Source of the DNA: Vibrio penaeicida
Lineage (GTDB): Bacteria; Pseudomonadota; Gammaproteobacteria; Enterobacterales; Vibrionaceae
Length of the DNA: 64,000 bases
Reading direction: 5' to 3'
Assembly: GCF_019977755.1 (NCBI RefSeq)
Contig: NZ_AP025144.1
Coordinates: forward strand, 434,001-498,000
The position numbers were made by a program, and so were the translations under genes. The notes under the pieces are model-generated. The model had not been told where the DNA came from, made no database searches, and worked only from the letters and a program-made list of their open reading frames with translations. This document shows, in pieces, positions 47,787 through 57,179 of this stretch. Position 1 is the first letter of the stretch. The number at the start of each line of letters is the position of its first letter.

Positions 47787-48281
47787 TTAACCTGGTATCT
47801 GTGCTCTTAATGCACGCTCATACCCTTCAATCAACCTTTTTAATCCTTCAGGCGGTTCGTTACCTGTAAGAGTGATTTCTAGGCTAGCATTGGCAGAACT
47901 GTCATTTTTCGGTTGACCTAGCATCTTATTTTTTATTCCTGGTTTATCCGCTTTACGCGCAAATGAGACCATTAACTGATTCATATCATTAGTATTGATC
48001 TCCAGTTCAGTATGAAACTTCACCTCTGTGATACGCGGTGCAGATACAGGTACTAATGCTAACAAAGGCACTTCAGCACTAACATTCTCAACCCCATGCT
48101 CTGTTCGGCTGGGAAACTGCATATTACAAGTTTTAGGGGTGTAGCTTGGCGCATCTCCCTCTTCACCTAGGTGCTCATCAAAAAAGCGCTTAACAAAGTC
48201 AATGGTTTCACCTTCTACCGACTTTGCAGCGTCTTTAACCCCTTTATGGATGGCCTGCATTAACGATTGAAATTCGATCAT
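47787..48281 (-). CDS. DUF2589-like protein, divergent
   Basis: A 164-residue protein: VSAEVPLLALVPVSAPRITEVKFHTELEI and SLEITLTGNEPPEGLKRLIEGYERAL match the middle and end of DUF2589 proteins (VPLLALVP... and G-x-L-P-x-G-x-x-x-L), but the N-terminal PMKALIGAPLKAAT block is absent and replaced by MIEFQSLMQAIHKGVKDAAKSV. RBS AGGAG before ATG 48281. Confidence 0.7.
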   Translation of the reverse strand: MIEFQSLMQAIHKGVKDAAKSVEGETIDFVKRFFDEHLGEEGDAPSYTPKTCNMQFPSRTEHGVENVSAEVPLLALVPVSAPRITEVKFHTELEINTNDMNQLMVSFARKADKPGIKNKMLGQPKNDSSANASLEITLTGNEPPEGLKRLIEGYERALRAQIPG

Positions 48282-48311
48282 ATGTTTCTCCTACTATTGG
48301 CTTTGTAAAAT

Positions 48312-48331
48312 GAGGAAGCCGGAGCTTCCTC
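48312..48331 (-). terminator. Hairpin between DUF2589 genes
   Basis: GAGGAAGC / GCTTCCTC with a 4-base loop, followed on the minus strand by ATTTTAC. Probably partial termination, giving more of the first gene product (48356-48973) than of those downstream. Confidence 0.55.
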
Positions 48332-48355
48332 GGTTTAAACAATCAATATTTGTGA

Positions 48356-48973
48356 TTACTCTGGTTTTTCGATGATAGGTTCAATGTTTTTAGTGAATGC
48401 ATTGATAATGGTTGTTACACCTGTAGGTAGTGGGAGTTGACCTGCATGAACATCTACCTCATATTTTGCTTTATTTGATGCCTCGTAGTGTTCTTTCTGC
48501 GTTGAACTTGATTTATTACTATGAGATACCGAACCACTAACTTCAACGGAGAAAAGACCAGCATTGTATTTTGCCGTAATATCTGCTTGTGCAGCTGTTT
48601 CTTGCTCAGTTTTCTTTTCATTATCTGTTGAGGTTGAACTTGATACTTCCATTTCAAAATGTACTTTCACATCGTCAACGGCTAACGAGTTAAGTGGTAT
48701 AAGAGTAAGAAGTGGTAGTCTTAGCGTGATCTCTGCGTCGGTACCTGCGCTTCCGTCGGCTTTAATCACTGGGCGTTTCAAGATGAACTCAACCATAATT
48801 GGTTCTAGTTGACCATTACCACCTCCACCGTTAAAACACGTACTCAGCATAAATTGAGTTTGTGTTCTGGCCATCATACCGTTTGCATCTGTTGCTGCTT
48901 TTAGTGGACCACCGATAAGGGATTTCATTGGCAAGCCACCAAACTGCTGTGCCATTGATACTAATCCAGACAT
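48356..48973 (-). CDS. DUF2589-family protein
   Basis: A 205-residue protein: QQFGGLPMKSLIGGPLKAATDANGMMARTQTQFMLSTCF, LEPIMVEFILKRP, LPLLTLIPLNSLAVDDVKVHFEMEV, then a Ser/Thr/Lys-rich stretch and VHAGQLPLPTGVTTIINAFTKNIEPI. It is closest in plan to the 47177 protein. It heads the operon, behind hairpins in the 5' region (CAGTACC-TTT-GGTACTG at 48997-49013). RBS AGGAG before ATG 48973. Function unknown. Confidence 0.85.
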   Translation of the reverse strand: MSGLVSMAQQFGGLPMKSLIGGPLKAATDANGMMARTQTQFMLSTCFNGGGGNGQLEPIMVEFILKRPVIKADGSAGTDAEITLRLPLLTLIPLNSLAVDDVKVHFEMEVSSSTSTDNEKKTEQETAAQADITAKYNAGLFSVEVSGSVSHSNKSSSTQKEHYEASNKAKYEVDVHAGQLPLPTGVTTIINAFTKNIEPIIEKPE

Positions 48974-49410: not shown

Positions 49411-50045
49411 CTACTCAAACGTCTGCCTTGGGGCTAACAGCTCATACACAAAGAACACCAGCAGCGCACAGCCAAAGGTGATCAGCACGGTGGTCATCCC
49501 TTCTGAACCCATCCAGTCGAGCATAAAGCCGATCACCAACAAGCCCGTCATGCCGCCTAACGAATCCATAATGGTGTAGCTCATGTTGGCGCTCATTTGA
49601 TCTTGTTGGCAGAAGCGCTCGCCTACCGCCGTTAAGCCAATGGCGTAGATGCCCCCCATCGAGCCTCCCCAGAAAAACAGCAGCGTCAGTGCCAGCCAGT
49701 ATTCGGTGTACACCGCCAGAGAAAGGTACACCGCGCACACCACCGAGGTAAAAATGCAGCCCAACACCACAATACTGCGGTTAAGGAACGAGGCTCCGGT
49801 ACTCACAAAGATGCCAAGGGTGACGCTACCAAACATAAACATGGTCAGCAGAAGCTGCGACTGTGATTCGGTGAGCGCGTTTTCCATACCATATAAGGTG
49901 AGAAAAGAGGGCAACCCAAAGAAGCTGATGCCGCCAACAAACGCTGAAACTAAAATAACTTTGGCGTGGCGCAGCGCAAACCTTACCCGAACGGTTCCCG
50001 CATTGTCGGAAGACTGCGTTTTTTGCCCCGCAATCAGCAAAAACA
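49411..50045 (-). pseudogene. Truncated MFS transporter, duplicate of the 52187 gene
   Basis: The encoded 208-209 residues are identical at the protein level to the last ~209 residues of the 52187-53332 transporter, although the DNA differs at scattered silent sites (for example CAGCAG vs CAACAG around 49451). Homology begins at AAAAACA (50045) and ends at ACTCAAACG (49412). The N-terminal half is missing, and the upstream DNA is unrelated. So it is a fragment copied from an allele of the same gene. Confidence 0.9.
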
Positions 50046-50260: not shown

Positions 50261-51223
50261 TTAGCTATCTGGAAGCCGATATCCAGAGACTCGCTTTCTT
50301 TTGAGCGTCGGTAGAGCACGCTTTACCGACTCTTCTTTACCAACTACATTCCCTCTTTCCAGTTCTGTACAGGCGTGAAGCCAAGTTTCTTTGCTAATGC
50401 CTAACCGACTCAGGATAGGGGGAAGAATATGATCGATGTGCCCTCGTTTATCATCACGAATATGTCTGCCAGTCCAGTCAACTAATTCTAAGTAATCCAT
50501 CAGCCTGAACGGGATTCCGGTTGGCTGGTTTGTTCTAGGATAACCGACGAAGGGATGCAGGCAGGGTGCTGTGGCTTTGTTCTCTCTGAGTGTGTCCACT
50601 CTGGCTTTAACTGAAGTGTATTCCGATGTTTCGGGGCTGTCTGCCATGTTCGCTCGAATTGGATTTAAGTCCACATAAGTCATCGCGGCGGCAAGGGCTT
50701 GCTCGTCGAGCAGTGCTTGGCTTTTAAACCGCCCTTCCCAAAAATGCCCAGTACAACCGTCTTCTTTGTTGGCTTGAGTGGCAATGTATTGGTTTAGCAT
50801 GCGCATAAACCAACTGATGCTGGCTAATCTCTCCCGCCAAGTGTCAATGAGATCATGAACTTTTTCCGCTTCAGCTTCTGTTAGGGATTCTTGCTTTAAC
50901 CACTTTTGAATCAGCAATGGTGGGGTGTGAAAGCTCAACCATCTTTCACAAACGTCTTGGTCAGACAGGGATTGCATTTCTTCTTGGTTGATATGCAGCA
51001 CCACGTGGTAGTGGTTACTCATGATGGCGTAAGCACAGACATCAATACAAAACACTTGGCTAAGATTGAGCAATCGCTCTTCAATCCAACCGCGGCGGTG
51101 TTCAAAGCATTGGTTTCGCTCTGAATCGTAACCGCAGAGAAAGGAGCGTCGAACGCAGCGAGATACACAGTGATAATAGGGTGTCGCTTCTAAGCTGATT
51201 AGCTGAGCACGTGCTTTGGTCAT
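50261..51223 (-). CDS. REP-associated (Y1) tyrosine transposase
   Basis: A roughly 320-residue single-strand DNA transposase of the IS200-like/RayT type. Motifs: ATPYYHCVSRCVRRSFLCG, the HUH pair YAIMSNHYHVVLHI (HxH), TYVDLNPIRANMA and WFMRMLNQYIATQANKEDGCTGHFWEGRFKSQAL (catalytic Tyr region). The start used is the ATG at 51223 (MTKARAQLISLEATPYYHCV); 51262 is a longer option. It is near a decayed copy at 45246, in the same orientation. Confidence 0.92.
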   Translation of the reverse strand: MTKARAQLISLEATPYYHCVSRCVRRSFLCGYDSERNQCFEHRRGWIEERLLNLSQVFCIDVCAYAIMSNHYHVVLHINQEEMQSLSDQDVCERWLSFHTPPLLIQKWLKQESLTEAEAEKVHDLIDTWRERLASISWFMRMLNQYIATQANKEDGCTGHFWEGRFKSQALLDEQALAAAMTYVDLNPIRANMADSPETSEYTSVKARVDTLRENKATAPCLHPFVGYPRTNQPTGIPFRLMDYLELVDWTGRHIRDDKRGHIDHILPPILSRLGISKETWLHACTELERGNVVGKEESVKRALPTLKRKRVSGYRLPDS

Positions 51224-51419
51224 GATTCGCGAAGTTCTCATTTGAAGAAGAAACCCCACCATACGTGAAAGCCTTTGAGCTAGAAATAAGCAAAGATTAC
51301 TGTTGTGGCTTGAAGCATGACTGGCTGTAATTGATGGGTTTCGTGTTTTCTTAGAGTGAGTGTCCCCGTTATTTTTTTATTTCATCCTTTCCAGTTTCTC
51401 TAATCAACTTTTGTTCGTT

Positions 51420-51971
51420 TCACATTCTCCTCTCAAACCGAAAGATTATTCTAGGTTCGAAGCGAACCGGCTTTTCTTGCCGCTTAAAACCAAAGCTATG
51501 CAGTAAGTTTTGAGAAGCATAGTTGTTGTCGAACACATCGGCATACAGCTGGGTTATGTCTTGCTGCCTGAGTTGGTGGATAAGCTGCTCGATGGCTAAT
51601 GAAGCAAAGCCTTTGCGTTGGTAGGGAGCGGATATCCAGTAATAGATAAAGGCATGAGGTTGTCGCTGGTCAGTCTGTAGGTAGTAGCCCACGCAGCCGA
51701 TGAGTCCAAACTCGCGATGAAATACCCCTTGCCGAGTATGTGGCTTGCCACTGTTTTCTAAGATGTAATTCTGCGCACTTTCAATGGAGCTTATCGGTGA
51801 GCAGTTCAACGCTTGGCAAATGCCTTTGCTCATGCGCTTTAGGATGATCGGGGCATGCTTAAGTTCAATGGGGGCCAGCTGAATCGTATTTGGTTGTGGA
51901 ATCACATCCGTTTTGGCGGTTTGCTTTTTAACGGTGTGATTGTTGAATTGTTTTAAAGGGCTGGATGACAT
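51420..51971 (-). CDS. GNAT-family N-acetyltransferase
   Basis: A roughly 183-residue enzyme. GNAT motifs: YWISAPYQRKGFASLAIEQLIHQL (motif A), ITQLYADVFDNNYASQNLLHSFGFKRQEK (motif B). The N-terminal about 45 residues are extra. Start chosen at ATG 51971; a TTG at 52010 would add 13 residues. It resembles ribosomal-protein or amino-acid acetyltransferases; substrate unknown. Confidence 0.78.
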   Translation of the reverse strand: MSSSPLKQFNNHTVKKQTAKTDVIPQPNTIQLAPIELKHAPIILKRMSKGICQALNCSPISSIESAQNYILENSGKPHTRQGVFHREFGLIGCVGYYLQTDQRQPHAFIYYWISAPYQRKGFASLAIEQLIHQLRQQDITQLYADVFDNNYASQNLLHSFGFKRQEKPVRFEPRIIFRFERRM

Positions 51972-52101
51972 AGTTAACGAAAAGTAAGCATATCGAGGGG
52001 AAGTACTCAATGGCTTCTTATGAGCATAAAGAAATACACAAAATGGGCGACGAAAAGGGTTTTTATACCCACCTGTTGCCGTATATGTGCTTGCATGTAA
52101 A

Positions 52102-52186: not shown

Positions 52187-53332
52187 TTACTCAAACGTCT
52201 GCCTTGGGGCTAACAGCTCATACACAAAGAACACCAACAGCGCACAACCAAAGGTGATCAACACAGTAGTCATTCCTTCCGATCCCATCCAGTCGAGCAT
52301 AAAGCCGATCACCAGTAAGCCCGTCATGCCGCCTAACGAATCCATAATGGTGTAGCTCATATTGGCGCTCATCTGATCTTGCTGACAGAAGCGCTCGCCT
52401 ACCGCCGTTAAGCCAATGGCGTAAATTCCTCCCATTGAACCTCCCCAGAAAAACAGCAGCGTCAGTGCCAGCCAGTATTCGGTGTACACCGCCAGAGAAA
52501 GGTACACCGCGCACACCACCGAGGTAAAAATGCAGCCCAACACCACAATGCTGCGGTTGAGAAAAGACGCTCCAGTGCTAACAAAAATGCCAAGGGTGAC
52601 GCTACCAAACATAAACATGGTCAGCAGAAGCTGCGACTGTGATTCGGTGAGCGCGTTTTCCATACCATATAAGGTGAGAAAAGAGGGCAACCCAAAGAAG
52701 CTGATGCCGCCAACAAACGCTGAAACTAAAATAACTTTGGCGTGGCGCAGCGCAAACCTTACCCGAACGGTTCCCGCATTGTCGGAAGACTGCGTTTTTT
52801 GCCCCGCAATCAGCAAAAACACAAAGGGCAAGCTGGTGATGATGGCGCTGGTTTCCAGTTGCCATTCGGGGTCGATATACGGCAGTTGCAGCAGTAATGG
52901 CCCCAGTGCAAGCCCGCCAGACAACGCCGCCGAAAATAACCCCATCACCAAACCTTTTAGCTTGCCTTGAATACAGGTGTTTAATGAGGTTTGGATAATC
53001 ACCAGCATCATCCCTGTGGATGCGCCGTAGCAAAAAATACCCACCATCCATAACGGGTAGTGTTGGCTGTGAGAGAGCAAAATAAGGCTCGATGCCCGAA
53101 GTGCCGACATCAGAAGAATGGAGGGAGACAGCCCCCATTTTTCCACGCAACGAGAAAGGGGACGATAAAGCAAAAGGATACCGATGATCTCAAAACTCAT
53201 GGCAAACCCAATTAAGGTATTGCCATAGCCTTGCTCACTCATGGTGAGCGGTATGGTGACGTAGTTAATGCCAGAGGAAAGCTGAACAAACAAGGTCGCG
53301 ATGATCAGTAAAAAAGGGGCGATTTTCGTCAT
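52187..53332 (-). CDS. MFS transporter, last gene of the amine-channel operon
   Basis: A 381-residue permease with about 12 membrane segments. MFS pattern: ATLFVQLSSGINYVTIPLTMSEQGYGNTLIGFAMSFEIIGILLLYRPLSRCVEKWG and central-loop switch around residue 170-180 (GQKTQSSDNAGTV). It overlaps the upstream gene by four bases (ATGA). Since its partners make and sense an amine, export or uptake of that amine (or its precursor amino acid) is likely. Substrate not proven. Confidence 0.88.
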   Translation of the reverse strand: MTKIAPFLLIIATLFVQLSSGINYVTIPLTMSEQGYGNTLIGFAMSFEIIGILLLYRPLSRCVEKWGLSPSILLMSALRASSLILLSHSQHYPLWMVGIFCYGASTGMMLVIIQTSLNTCIQGKLKGLVMGLFSAALSGGLALGPLLLQLPYIDPEWQLETSAIITSLPFVFLLIAGQKTQSSDNAGTVRVRFALRHAKVILVSAFVGGISFFGLPSFLTLYGMENALTESQSQLLLTMFMFGSVTLGIFVSTGASFLNRSIVVLGCIFTSVVCAVYLSLAVYTEYWLALTLLFFWGGSMGGIYAIGLTAVGERFCQQDQMSANMSYTIMDSLGGMTGLLVIGFMLDWMGSEGMTTVLITFGCALLVFFVYELLAPRQTFE

Positions 53333-54666
53333 TCCGTATTCTCCTTATACACTTTCCAAATCAGTTCGATTCGGTTTTTTTCACCCGAGACCAAGTCGAA
53401 GCCCATTTGCCTTAGGCGATTGATGGTGCTCATGATGCCGAGCTCGTCTGGGGATTGTTGTGCCATATAGGCGCTGCCCGTAATGTGTTCAAACTCGTTG
53501 GCTATCAAGGAATGTAGGGCACTGAGTTTAGAAGATGTATCCAAATAAAAATGAGTTGAAAATGCCCAGCAATCGAGGTGCTCTTTTAATAAGCTGGTCT
53601 CGGCTCTGAGCGGTTCCGATTGTGCTCTCGCCAGTTGGGCGTGTAATTGTGTTAACTCTTCCGTGATTTTATCGCTGGTGAACACCGCTTCTGTTTGCAT
53701 TGGGATGTGCCAGTCATGAAAACCTTTGCAACGTTTGTAGGTGTGTTGATCCAATGAGTGGAACCAATCCTGAACCGATTGCTTGTCTGATTGAAAGGCT
53801 AAGGGTCTCAAGCTTTGCGAGTAATGATAAAGCGCTCGAACACGTGGTGTGTGCTTCACCAAATCCCTTGGAATACGCTTGTAAAAATACGTCGTTAATC
53901 CCGACAGCAGTACATTTAAATGATGTGCACGAGAGAGCTTTTCTTTGGCGTTGGCTTCTCGATGGCGAATGATATTGAGGTGATTGACTTGCGAACGGCG
54001 TATCCACCAGATGATCATCCCAACAATCAGCCCCAAGAACAGAATGATGATCTTGGCTTTATCGAACACTCGTTCAATGCTCTCTAGCCTTTCTTGGAAA
54101 GCGCTCACTTCCAAATCCATGGCCAATACACCGGCAAAGTCCCCTTCGTTACTATAAAACGGTGCATACGCACTGATGAAACTGCCCCATTGGTCGCTGT
54201 AGGTGCTGATCTCAATGCTGTATCGCTCGAGTGAGCGTTTTAACTCGACTGGCGCATCGTCATACAGGGTCATCAGGGCGGGGGGAGGGTCAGGCAAACC
54301 ATCGCCATCGGCGTCATTTTGTGGGCTTGGGTTCACCATAAAGTAGACGTTGCCATCTTTGAGCACGCTGGTGTAAATGTAGCGAACATCCGCGGCGGAA
54401 CGTCGGATTTTCTCCATTTTCTCAGCCATGGCTTGATAGTTTGCATCGGACGCTTTGGTGCTTTCATCAAAGGTAAGATGCATTGCGCCATCAAGCGTTG
54501 AAGCCGAGGTTTTCACTGTCGAAATCAGCCCTATTTTGATTTGGTCTTCCAACGCATTGAGCGATTTGGAATAGAGCAAGTAGGTGGTGACCCCGAGCAG
54601 TAAGATGAAGATGGATGAACAGATCACCGCTTCAATGATGGTCTGTAAAGATTTGGATGGTCTCAT
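53329..54666 (-). CDS. Membrane sensor with Cache domain and unknown C-terminal domain
   Basis: A 445-residue protein from ATG 54666 (MRPSKSLQTIIEAVICSSIF). Residues about 12-35 and 230-252 are membrane helices that flank a periplasmic Cache-type sensor domain (DVRYIYTSVLKDGNVYFMVNPSPQNDADGDGLPDPPPALMTLY, YSIEISTYSDQWGSFISAYAPFYSNEGDFAGVLAMDLEV). Residues about 255-445 show no kinase, GGDEF or HTH pattern I recognise. It overlaps both flanking genes, so it is part of the operon. It may sense the same ligand as the channel. Confidence 0.8.
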   Translation of the reverse strand: MRPSKSLQTIIEAVICSSIFILLLGVTTYLLYSKSLNALEDQIKIGLISTVKTSASTLDGAMHLTFDESTKASDANYQAMAEKMEKIRRSAADVRYIYTSVLKDGNVYFMVNPSPQNDADGDGLPDPPPALMTLYDDAPVELKRSLERYSIEISTYSDQWGSFISAYAPFYSNEGDFAGVLAMDLEVSAFQERLESIERVFDKAKIIILFLGLIVGMIIWWIRRSQVNHLNIIRHREANAKEKLSRAHHLNVLLSGLTTYFYKRIPRDLVKHTPRVRALYHYSQSLRPLAFQSDKQSVQDWFHSLDQHTYKRCKGFHDWHIPMQTEAVFTSDKITEELTQLHAQLARAQSEPLRAETSLLKEHLDCWAFSTHFYLDTSSKLSALHSLIANEFEHITGSAYMAQQSPDELGIMSTINRLRQMGFDLVSGEKNRIELIWKVYKENTE

Positions 54667-55658
54667 AGCTGGCTGTTTACTCCGATCAAGATGGCTATCG
54701 CGGCAAGGAAAAAGGTCGGGAATGCGGTTCGGCAATATGGAATTAAAGCGTGGGTAGTTTTGCCTTTTTCTTCGCGGATTTTGACGAACACGATGATCAA
54801 AATGGCGGCGAAAATACTGACGTATCCCATGATGATCATGCGCTCAATGAATGTGGTGTAGGGCAGCCGTGGCAGTAGGCTACTGGTGTAGAAGGTATAC
54901 GCCACAACCGTCAGCATCATGGTGAATGACGTCATCAGGCGCTCGGAAAACCCTTCAATCCAAAATACCGCCCAGCTCGCGACCAATATTAACGACAGCG
55001 GAAGAATAAACTGCCAAAGGTAATAGTTCGGTTTTCTGTTGGCATCAATGGTCACGGTTAAGCGGGAGTAGTAGGTGCTTTCGGTATCATCCAAATGGTG
55101 GTAGCTGTGTTGGCTCACTTTCGCGGTGGGGGTACTTTCCATATCCCATTCGCTGATGATTTTGTTGGTTAGTTCCTCCACATACACACTGGCGTCACCA
55201 AACTTTAAGCGTTCTTGATCGAACGAAAAGGGTTCCATGATGATTTCAAAAGACTGGCGATCAAACGGGAAGCGGCGAAAGTCCATTTCTGTGGTGAAGG
55301 TGCCTTGAAATCGCTCGTTATAGGTAATATCGCCATTGCTGGCGATCACCAAGCGCTTATTAGGGGTGAGGCGTTGCCCTATGATGTTGATGAATTCAAA
55401 CGCGGGCACCCACGAGCCTTCTTCAAGCAGTTTGTCTAGGTGCTGATTTTCTATCAATCGAACTCCCGATTTTGGCTTAAGAGGGTGCTTAACGTCTTGC
55501 CAAGTGGCTACGAGGTAACCATCGATTTTGTAGGTTTGATCAATGGTGTTCACACCGTAAATTTTATTGATCGAAAACGAGGTGTGAATGACGTGCTGTG
55601 CCTTTGTTGAAAAAGACAAAAAGACCAGGAAACACAGCAATGGAAATAACGTTTTCAT
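54663..55658 (-). CDS. Pentameric ligand-gated ion channel (ELIC type)
   Basis: A 331-residue Cys-loop-superfamily channel with signal peptide (MKTLFPLLCFLVFLSFSTKA). It is clearly related to ELIC of Dickeya (Erwinia) chrysanthemi: INKIYGVNTIDQTYKIDGYL, VPAFEFINIIG, NKRLVIASNGDITYNERFQGTF, FRRFPFDRQSFEI, and TM1-TM3 stretch NYYLWQFILPLSLILVASW, FSERLMTSFTMMLTVVAYTFYTSSLLPRLPY. ELIC binding-site residues appear conserved: Glu in PAFEF, Arg in NKRL, Asn in YNERF, Glu-Pro-Phe (EPFSF), aromatic Tyr in SYHHL; ELIC Phe188 is Tyr here. ELIC is gated by primary amines. It overlaps both neighbours by 4 bases, within a decarboxylase operon. Confidence 0.93.
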   Translation of the reverse strand: MKTLFPLLCFLVFLSFSTKAQHVIHTSFSINKIYGVNTIDQTYKIDGYLVATWQDVKHPLKPKSGVRLIENQHLDKLLEEGSWVPAFEFINIIGQRLTPNKRLVIASNGDITYNERFQGTFTTEMDFRRFPFDRQSFEIIMEPFSFDQERLKFGDASVYVEELTNKIISEWDMESTPTAKVSQHSYHHLDDTESTYYSRLTVTIDANRKPNYYLWQFILPLSLILVASWAVFWIEGFSERLMTSFTMMLTVVAYTFYTSSLLPRLPYTTFIERMIIMGYVSIFAAILIIVFVKIREEKGKTTHALIPYCRTAFPTFFLAAIAILIGVNSQL

Positions 55659-57151
55659 GGGCTCTCCTTTAGAGTGTTTGGGTGAATAGGACTGGGTTGA
55701 TGGTGAACCGAGCGAGATTGAGGTCGATAAAAGTTTGGCTGGCTAACCAAGGGGTTGAGCGTCGGTAATGTATGGGGTTCAAACGCATTAGAGGCGGAGA
55801 GTTCAGCCAAAAATTGATCAATCAAAGGGCGCTGAACATGGCTCAGTAACACGGCGTGGCTAAAGCGTTGTGGCTTGCCTTCTATCAATATGTACTCTTG
55901 CGCGAGGGAATATTTCTTATTGATATGAGCAGATGGCGACGAGAACCGAACAATGTTGGCACCAGGCATTCGAGGTAATACGATGAACTTCTGTTGCTGT
56001 AGGCGTTTTGAATTCGCGAGCTGTTGCAGTGCGGCTTGTAAGTATTCAGTATTACTTTCATTTTGCTGAGCGATCTGTTTTAGCCCTTGAGTGCCAAGGG
56101 AAGTGAGCCGTTCCCAGAGATAAAGGGAGTAAAGCCCTTGTCGAGACCCCGCAATGGTGGAATCACGTCCAGCTATGTAGGTTGGGCGATTGGATGAGCC
56201 GACTTTGTACCTTTCCTGCATCAGGAAAATACCGCAGCTCCACGGTGCGCCGAGCCATTTATATGGGCTGGTACACATCGACATCACCTCTCGGTGGCGA
56301 AACTCATAAGGTTCTGAAGAGACAGAAAAAGGATCCGATTGCAGAAACGGTGAGAAATTGGCCGAGAGAGCGCCATCGACGTGCACCCAGTAACGTCGAT
56401 TGCATTCTGTGTTGACGCCCAATAGAGGTTTTAATGTGGTCAGTATGCGAAAAATGGCATCACTGCCACCGCTGAAGGTGGTGCCGTGATTCAAAAATAA
56501 AATAACCGGATGCTGTCGCTCTACAAAAAATTCGGTGAGACGATATAAGTCTTGCTCGATAACCGACCCGTATTCATCTACCGTGAGGCTTTTCTGCCAA
56601 TCCCCTTGGTTAATGGGGCAAGTGCCGAGCTTTTCACCGACTTGGTTGAAGGTGGGGATACCTAACATTTGGCAAGCTTTATAAATCGAGTAATGCGTAC
56701 AGGATGAGCTGATTAACACTGGCGGGTTTGGCACATGCACCGATTTTTCATACCCTTCTACGGCACTACCGCTTAAGTAATCCCTAGCATTCCATAGGGC
56801 ATATAAGTTGCCTTCTGTGGAGCCCATTGCAGTGACGTAACCCCAATAATTTCGCTGCGAGTTAGGCATCGTCATGCCCCACAATCGGGCGTAATAATCG
56901 AGCACAGCACGCTCAAATTGCTTGGCATTGATTTGATAAGACCCCTCTTCATACCCATCACCAAGGTTGAGTAAATTTAGTGATAAAAAGGGGCGCATTT
57001 CAGGTGGAAAAATGACTTCCTGGTTGGTTTGATAGCCTAAAAAATGCGTTTTTTTTAGGCGCATTTCATCCAAGTAATTCCCCAAAATATGGTTTTTTTC
57101 GGATGTCGATATGCCATTTTCACAGATGGATAAATAGTGAGGAAAGCTCAT
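55655..57151 (-). CDS. PLP-dependent amino acid decarboxylase (group II, histidine-decarboxylase-like)
   Basis: A 498-residue enzyme from ATG 57151 (RBS GAGG). It belongs to the pyridoxal-dependent decarboxylase family: GYVTAMGSTEGNLYALWNAR, SSCTHYSIYKACQMLGI, VHVDGALSANFSPFL (PLP-contact Asp) and the PLP lysine in TSPYKWLGAPWSCGIFLM, followed by RPTYIAGRDSTIAGSRQG. Product is an amine: histamine is the first candidate from family similarity, but substrate is not determinable. It overlaps the ion channel start as ATGA. It would make the ligand in the cytoplasm. Confidence 0.9.
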   Translation of the reverse strand: MSFPHYLSICENGISTSEKNHILGNYLDEMRLKKTHFLGYQTNQEVIFPPEMRPFLSLNLLNLGDGYEEGSYQINAKQFERAVLDYYARLWGMTMPNSQRNYWGYVTAMGSTEGNLYALWNARDYLSGSAVEGYEKSVHVPNPPVLISSSCTHYSIYKACQMLGIPTFNQVGEKLGTCPINQGDWQKSLTVDEYGSVIEQDLYRLTEFFVERQHPVILFLNHGTTFSGGSDAIFRILTTLKPLLGVNTECNRRYWVHVDGALSANFSPFLQSDPFSVSSEPYEFRHREVMSMCTSPYKWLGAPWSCGIFLMQERYKVGSSNRPTYIAGRDSTIAGSRQGLYSLYLWERLTSLGTQGLKQIAQQNESNTEYLQAALQQLANSKRLQQQKFIVLPRMPGANIVRFSSPSAHINKKYSLAQEYILIEGKPQRFSHAVLLSHVQRPLIDQFLAELSASNAFEPHTLPTLNPLVSQPNFYRPQSRSVHHQPSPIHPNTLKESP

Positions 57152-57179
57152 AGATGCCTCAGAATATTTGAACGAATGT

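Follow-up and report, generated by a model that had tools for sequence, protein, structure and literature searches.

Recurrence of an amino-acid decarboxylase beside ELIC-type channels: a candidate ligand-production and ligand-sensing operon in Vibrio penaeicida

Does a bacterial pentameric ligand-gated ion channel (pLGIC) share an operon with the enzyme that makes its ligand? ELIC, one such channel, ranks with the most thoroughly studied structural models of neurotransmitter receptors. The question was raised by a 64,000-nucleotide stretch of the Vibrio penaeicida genome (assembly GCF_019977755.1, contig NZ_AP025144.1, positions 434,001 to 498,000; hereafter the window), on whose minus strand four genes lie head to tail at 52187-57151. 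They encode, in order, a pyridoxal 5'-phosphate (PLP) group-II amino-acid decarboxylase, an ELIC-type channel, a Cache-like membrane protein and a major facilitator superfamily (MFS) transporter. On the basis of family models and gene neighbourhoods, the operon is read, with somewhat more confidence than doubt, as a conserved ligand-production and ligand-sensing module round the channel, in which the decarboxylase would make the primary amine that gates it.

The operon and its recurrence

The decarboxylase gene (498 residues) was located at 55655..57151, the channel gene (331 residues) at 54663..55658, the gene of the Cache/PDC-like membrane protein (445 residues) at 53329..54666 and the MFS gene (381 residues) at 52187..53332, all on the minus strand. 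Adjoining genes overlap by 4 bases of the form ATGA at all three junctions (55655-55658, 54663-54666 and 53329-53332), from which translation of the four as a unit was inferred. The mechanical open reading frame of the decarboxylase begins at TTG 57220; the start adopted here, ATG at 57151 with GAGG just upstream (57149..57160, minus strand), gives the 498-residue protein, and GAGG is a probable ribosome-binding site. An earlier note on this DNA had described the four minus-strand genes with their overlaps and had named the four families; every reading frame was recovered at the positions it gave, and the family assignments were borne out by family models and structural relatives, the Cache match being weak in the window protein.

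Channel loci were assembled from one contig scan (20 loci), with additions from Vibrio, a gammaproteobacterial class sample, two families (those to which Dickeya undicola and locus L008 belong) and the Cohaesibacter order. Contig-scan loci with a channel at least 34% identical (L002-L017) and genome-search matches above 360 bits were taken as the ELIC clade. After duplicates had been dropped (L037, L038, L040 and L042, whose contigs are equal in length to those of L002, L005, L004 and L003, respectively), 23 distinct ELIC-clade loci were retained: the window, L002-L017, L035, L036, L039, L041, L104 and L105. The loci were screened with profiles for both decarboxylase types, the Cache protein, the MFS transporter and the channel, built from the loci themselves; a third, distant decarboxylase type would escape such a screen.

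A decarboxylase was found directly upstream of the channel at 19 of the 23 ELIC-clade loci and within ∼6 kb at 20. The window-type enzyme occupied the directly adjoining position at 14 loci (the L016 copy is interrupted by the contig end) and glutamate decarboxylase (GAD) at five (L008, L009, L010, L012 and L017); at L011 a GAD gene of the same orientation lies ∼6 kb upstream. The Cache and MFS genes follow the channel at 18/23 loci (the L007 MFS gene is ended by the contig end). Neither decarboxylase type was found at any of 46 other pLGIC loci (L018-L021, L043-L046 and L106-L143), of which some are on short contigs, a few come from a common genome and eight are weak channel matches of 32-49 bits (L134, L136, L137, L139-L143). 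The association of decarboxylase and channel is not due to chance, and the enrichment of the four-gene order that the earlier note had predicted was observed, the contiguous order being present at 17/23 ELIC-clade loci and either decarboxylase at 0/46 others.

ELIC-clade channels are rare. They were found in 9 of 196 Vibrio genomes, in 3/119, 2/397 and 2/297 genomes of three other samples (the Dickeya undicola and L008 families and the Cohaesibacter order) and, among 369 genomes of the gammaproteobacterial class sample, in the window's genome only, with 17 other genomes giving weaker channel matches. The V. penaeicida genome (6.78 Mb, 3 contigs) holds one PF02931 channel; in two V. penaeicida records the channel is 97 and 98% identical to that of the window. 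Both the decarboxylase, at 849-901 bits (next best 367), and the Cache protein, at 589-621 bits (next best 52.5), were found in exactly those nine of the 196 Vibrio genomes that have an ELIC-clade channel, and adjoined it. The decarboxylase model gave some match in 184/196 of these genomes, most of which have weaker matches whose scores mark them as other PLP enzymes. For two Marinomonas and for Celerinatantimonas, the contigs that carry the channel, decarboxylase and Cache proteins are equal in length and hence probably the same.

Two other kinds of channel locus were recorded. Four more Vibrio genomes (L043-L046) carry a non-ELIC pLGIC (143-150 bits) with no decarboxylase, Cache or MFS neighbours of the operon type. 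Two Maribellus loci (L013, 8173-9543; L014, 8696-9922) carry an ELIC-clade channel without a decarboxylase, neighboured by an eCIS_core-domain gene in L013 and by an inositol polyphosphate kinase match in L014.

Identity and exchange of the decarboxylase

The window enzyme matched PF00282 with 55.9 bits (cut-off 27). Its nearest solved relatives were the Streptomyces L-methionine decarboxylase (7cif, 233 bits), serine decarboxylase (121 bits) and histidine decarboxylase (81.5 bits), all PLP group-II enzymes as it is. Assignment as GAD was rejected (TIGR01788, 31 bits against a cut-off of 380.4), as was assignment as histidine decarboxylase by name alone (NF002748, 202 bits against 305). Compared with the 557-residue 7cif, the window enzyme has SPYKW in place of SGHKW and lacks several inserts. 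SPYKW was present in all 12 aligned operon enzymes and in the partial L016 enzyme. Among the window enzyme and the best 120 of 360 relatives, the residue before the PLP lysine was His in 82/121 and Tyr in 39/121; the latter include seven more distant proteins, 34-38% identical and known from protein sequence alone (P0137, P0138, P0142, P0143, P0151, P0159 and P0218).

Since the group-II His directly before the PLP lysine normally binds the PLP phosphate (PMC11407765), its replacement by Tyr in the 12 operon enzymes and L016 would fit an enzyme that carries out some other PLP reaction in vivo. That explanation is regarded as highly improbable: the window enzyme retains PLP Lys298, stacking His153, the pyridine Asp259 and loop Tyr325, and the loop Tyr is invariant in the aligned operon enzymes at 27 residues past the PLP lysine, the spacing at which the essential Tyr341 follows Lys314 in Arabidopsis serine decarboxylase (PMC11407765). 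The product of the window-type enzyme in Vibrio, Dickeya and their relatives is probably a short aliphatic amine and not γ-aminobutyric acid (GABA). A valine decarboxylase is a further relative of the enzyme. It makes n-propylamine and other short amines (PMC7794544).

The decarboxylase position is filled by a relative of methionine, serine and histidine decarboxylases in gammaproteobacteria and by GAD in Flavobacteriaceae and Cohaesibacter. The adjoining GAD proteins scored above the TIGR01788 cut-off of 380 (L008, 401; L009, 395; L010, 411; L012, 478; L017, 414 bits), as did the displaced enzyme of L011 (404 bits), and plant and bacterial glutamate decarboxylases were the best solved matches in both of the two tested. 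In 6/6 genomes, some of them drafts, the operon-linked GAD was the sole gene above the TIGR01788 cut-off; the window's genome carries a separate GAD gene on another contig (467 bits). The GAD-linked product in Flavobacteriaceae and Cohaesibacter is probably GABA. The recurrence of the set in distant bacteria, with the decarboxylase sometimes replaced by a GABA-making enzyme, suggests that the signal to which the channel responds is produced by the enzyme beside it. An exchangeable ligand-making enzyme within a conserved operon leads to the hypothesis that each ELIC-clade channel has as its natural ligand whatever the neighbouring enzyme produces; ELIC's ligand would then probably not be GABA from the adjoining enzyme, and GABA-selective channels would be sought among GAD-linked marine bacteria.

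Identities between enzymes ran parallel to those between channels within each decarboxylase type (Spearman 0.83 over 21 pairs and 0.71 over 15 pairs, the pairs being non-independent). A quick tree of 49 channels, with several weak or long branches and an outgroup that was not monophyletic, placed the window-type set except L016 in one group (22 rows; Shimodaira-Hasegawa-like approximate likelihood ratio test, SH-aLRT, 96) and Flavobacteriaceae with Cohaesibacter in another (13 rows, SH-aLRT 95); both groups include numerous metagenome proteins represented by the protein sequence alone. The GAD-linked L012, Cellvibrio and Maribellus branch outside both groups with weak support. The separation of L012 from the main GAD group is a hint that the association with GAD could be the earlier one; L016, which also lies outside the groups and carries the window-type motif, weighs against this, and the order is uncertain given the long branches. 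In the two Cohaesibacter loci, genes for a TRAP transporter (L010, 5317-8148) and an ABC transporter (L017, 4632-8291) directly precede the GAD-channel operon on its own strand.

The core idea of the earlier note is already published for Dickeya. Zimmermann and Dutzler (2011) reported that the operon of ELIC includes, right beside the channel gene, a gene for a putative amino-acid decarboxylase and proposed that this enzyme processes the ligand (PMC3119659), and bacterial pLGIC-Cache fusions, together with one Cache neighbour in Rhodopseudomonas, were reported by Tasneem et al. in 2004 (PMC549065). The note's statement that no bacterial system of this composition had been described was therefore partly wrong. 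As in the window, the 2011 system has an orthologous channel with a decarboxylase in the same operon; the three Dickeya-type loci compared here (L006, L104 and L105) hold the Cache and MFS genes too, and the L104 channel is nearly identical to ELIC. The decarboxylase beside ELIC was given in 2011 as an annotated glutamate decarboxylase, on which a GABA argument was built (PMC3119659). In the Dickeya-type genomes TIGR01788 gave 25 and 27 bits in two and no match in the third, against the cut-off of 380, and the decarboxylases of all three loci fall in the methionine-decarboxylase-like family of the window enzyme. The 2011 label and the GABA argument are accordingly not supported by the models for these genomes; the strain from which ELIC comes lies outside the comparison. 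The excerpted text of Tasneem et al. contains no mention of a decarboxylase (PMC549065), and within the literature searched, most subscription papers lying outside its scope, a pLGIC was tied to a decarboxylase gene only in the 2011 paper, which leaves absence from print unproven. As far as searched, two findings go beyond what is in print: that one decarboxylase family can take the place of another, and that the Dickeya-type enzyme differs in identity from the label it was given.

In an alternative reading, the channel and the Cache protein would detect amines or GABA released by hosts or by other microbes, the decarboxylase supplying only a basal tone, a competing compound or a subsequent metabolic step. 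Dickeya infects plants, and V. penaeicida is pathogenic to shrimp. Chemoreception was proposed by Tasneem et al. (PMC549065), and the presence of putrescine and GABA in the plant-root environment was raised by Zimmermann and Dutzler (PMC3119659). Environmental sensing alone leaves unexplained why the decarboxylase position persists while the family that fills it changes, and it is considered rather improbable.

Channel, Cache-like protein and transporter

The window channel matched the ligand-binding domain family PF02931 with 58.8 bits (cut-off 26). In a PDB search ELIC chains were the best matches (∼350 bits, E ∼1e-104), with GLIC at ∼102-104 bits. The ELIC alignment spans residues 24-325 and thereby covers the four-helix membrane domain, for which the generic PF02932 gave 20.1 bits, below its cut-off of 28.1. 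Over the same residues the window channel shares 53% identity with that of Dickeya undicola, and its N-terminus is hydrophobic and signal-peptide-like by eye.

ELIC is opened by ethylamine, propylamine, cysteamine and GABA, and its agonist pocket is lined by Glu77, Glu131, Phe133, Tyr38 and Asn103 (PMC3119659). These positions were compared in an alignment of 22 rows, comprising 12 channels linked to window-type decarboxylases, six linked to GAD (L011 at a distance), three without a decarboxylase and ELIC. All five residues were identical in 18/18 decarboxylase-linked channels, that of the window included. Asn103, at which substitution by alanine abolished the response of ELIC (PMC3119659), was replaced by Asp or Thr in all three channels without a decarboxylase (L013, L014 and L015). 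L016, the closest relative of L015 in the channel tree, has a decarboxylase and retains Asn103. The contrast at this position is small and partly phylogenetic.

ELIC passes calcium and is inhibited by it; the inhibitory site comprises Asp113 and Asp158, alanine mutants of which move the apparent inhibition constant (Ki) for calcium from 0.26 mM to ∼5 mM (PMC3502511). One or both residues are absent from 18/22 rows; the four that keep the pair are ELIC and the three Dickeya-type channels. Loss of this inhibition would make sense in marine cells.

For the Cache-like protein of the window, PF02743 gave 16.4 bits against a cut-off of 45. In a family alignment of 37 members PF22673 matched 27 and PF02743 matched 17 at E<=0.05, and the L010 protein lies above its family cut-off for PF22673. 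By eye, the Cache/PDC-like domain is flanked by two hydrophobic helices, and the C-terminal part is variable. A histidine kinase in that part was unsupported, the Pfam scans giving no kinase family and the PDB search faint matches only (RetS, a histidine kinase, E 0.04-0.055). A conserved DxDxDG-like loop at residues 118-126 of the Cache domain could, speculatively, bind calcium. As in the pairs of Tasneem et al. (PMC549065), a channel is proposed here to be functionally paired with a Cache protein; in contrast to those, the Cache domain lies in a separate membrane protein with an extra C-terminal part, kept at 18/23 loci. The transporter matched PF07690 with 80.3 bits (cut-off 33.4).

Under the ligand-production reading, the cytoplasmic decarboxylase would convert an amino acid to a small primary amine, which the MFS protein may carry or exchange for the amino acid. 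The amine would bind the periplasmic face of the channel and open it, and cations would enter; the Cache protein may tune the response by sensing this amine, the precursor of the amine or calcium. A broader statement is advanced tentatively, on the doubtful side of even: that the operon is a one-operon bacterial counterpart of chemical transmission, with a transmitter synthase, a transporter, a gated channel and a second receptor, in which the transmitter has been changed by exchange of the decarboxylase. In Flavobacteriaceae and Cohaesibacter, a channel belonging to the GABA-receptor superfamily would then sense GABA produced by the only recognisable GAD of the genome. A survey of 2016 described the biological roles of all microbial pLGICs as unstudied in vivo (PMC4795631).

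Several observations weigh against production of the channel's ligand by the neighbouring enzyme. The known agonists of ELIC are needed at high micromolar to millimolar levels (PMC3119659), with a half-maximal effective concentration (EC50) for GABA of 1.6 mM (PMC3430861). At three of the 23 ELIC-clade loci (L013, L014 and L015, the last with only 1.9 kb of upstream sequence) neither decarboxylase type was found near the channel, five of the 23 are without the Cache and MFS genes, and some of the enrichment comes from closely related genomes, Vibrio alone contributing nine of the 23 loci. The window enzyme departs from the group-II pattern in having Tyr, not the phosphate-binding His, directly before its PLP lysine. 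A relative of the enzyme from Saccharobesus litoralis (P0124) shares this motif, and the channel matches listed, an incomplete set that does not name ELIC itself, include none from a contig of equal length. Channel column 91, with Arg or His in window-type-linked channels and Gln in GAD-linked ones, was rejected as proof of co-adaptation to the ligand because 28/303 columns (17/187 extracellular; 11 window-type rows and ELIC against six GAD rows, L016 excluded) separate the two groups anyway and most GAD-linked channels form one clade, so that the column is confounded with phylogeny.

A decarboxylase with a transporter is also the standard pair of acid resistance, as in gadBC and hdc. An acid- or energy-stress module was thus considered, in which the decarboxylase consumes protons, the MFS protein is an amino acid/amine exchanger and the channel acts as a safety valve for charge or osmotic load at high external amine instead of as a signalling receptor. 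True GAD enzymes occupy the decarboxylase position at five loci, as such a module would have it, and the low agonist affinity of ELIC fits high amine loads (PMC3430861). The large cation conductance of an open channel would cost proton motive force, however, and the conserved Cache protein suggests sensing; the stress module is judged unlikely. The transporter differs as well, since that of gadBC is an APC-type antiporter and that of the window operon belongs to the MFS, and the operon adds a ligand-gated channel and a Cache protein to the gadBC pair.

Flanking genes

A GNAT acetyltransferase gene (PF00583, 51 bits) lies 3' of the operon at 51420..52010 on the minus strand, and its membership is doubtful: a GNAT gene was found ∼0.4 kb downstream in L002 and ∼5 kb downstream in L005, and no GNAT match was obtained at the other loci of that screen. 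Scans for promoters and terminators were unusable: shuffled sequences averaged 7.6 promoter-like sites against three observed and 6.0 terminator-like sites against 11 observed, none of those listed lying directly 3' of the operon.

DUF2589-like genes were found near the operon at 8/23 ELIC-clade loci (window, 47787-48973; L003, L007, L008, L009, L011, L012 and L105) and at 0/46 other channel loci, flank lengths varying among loci. The MFS gene is duplicated in its 3' part, positions 52187-52830 recurring at 49411-50040, ∼2.8 kb downstream, with 94% identity over 300 nt. Between the two copies lie the GNAT gene and a gene for a Y1 transposase of the REP-associated type (50261-51262, under curated cut-offs).

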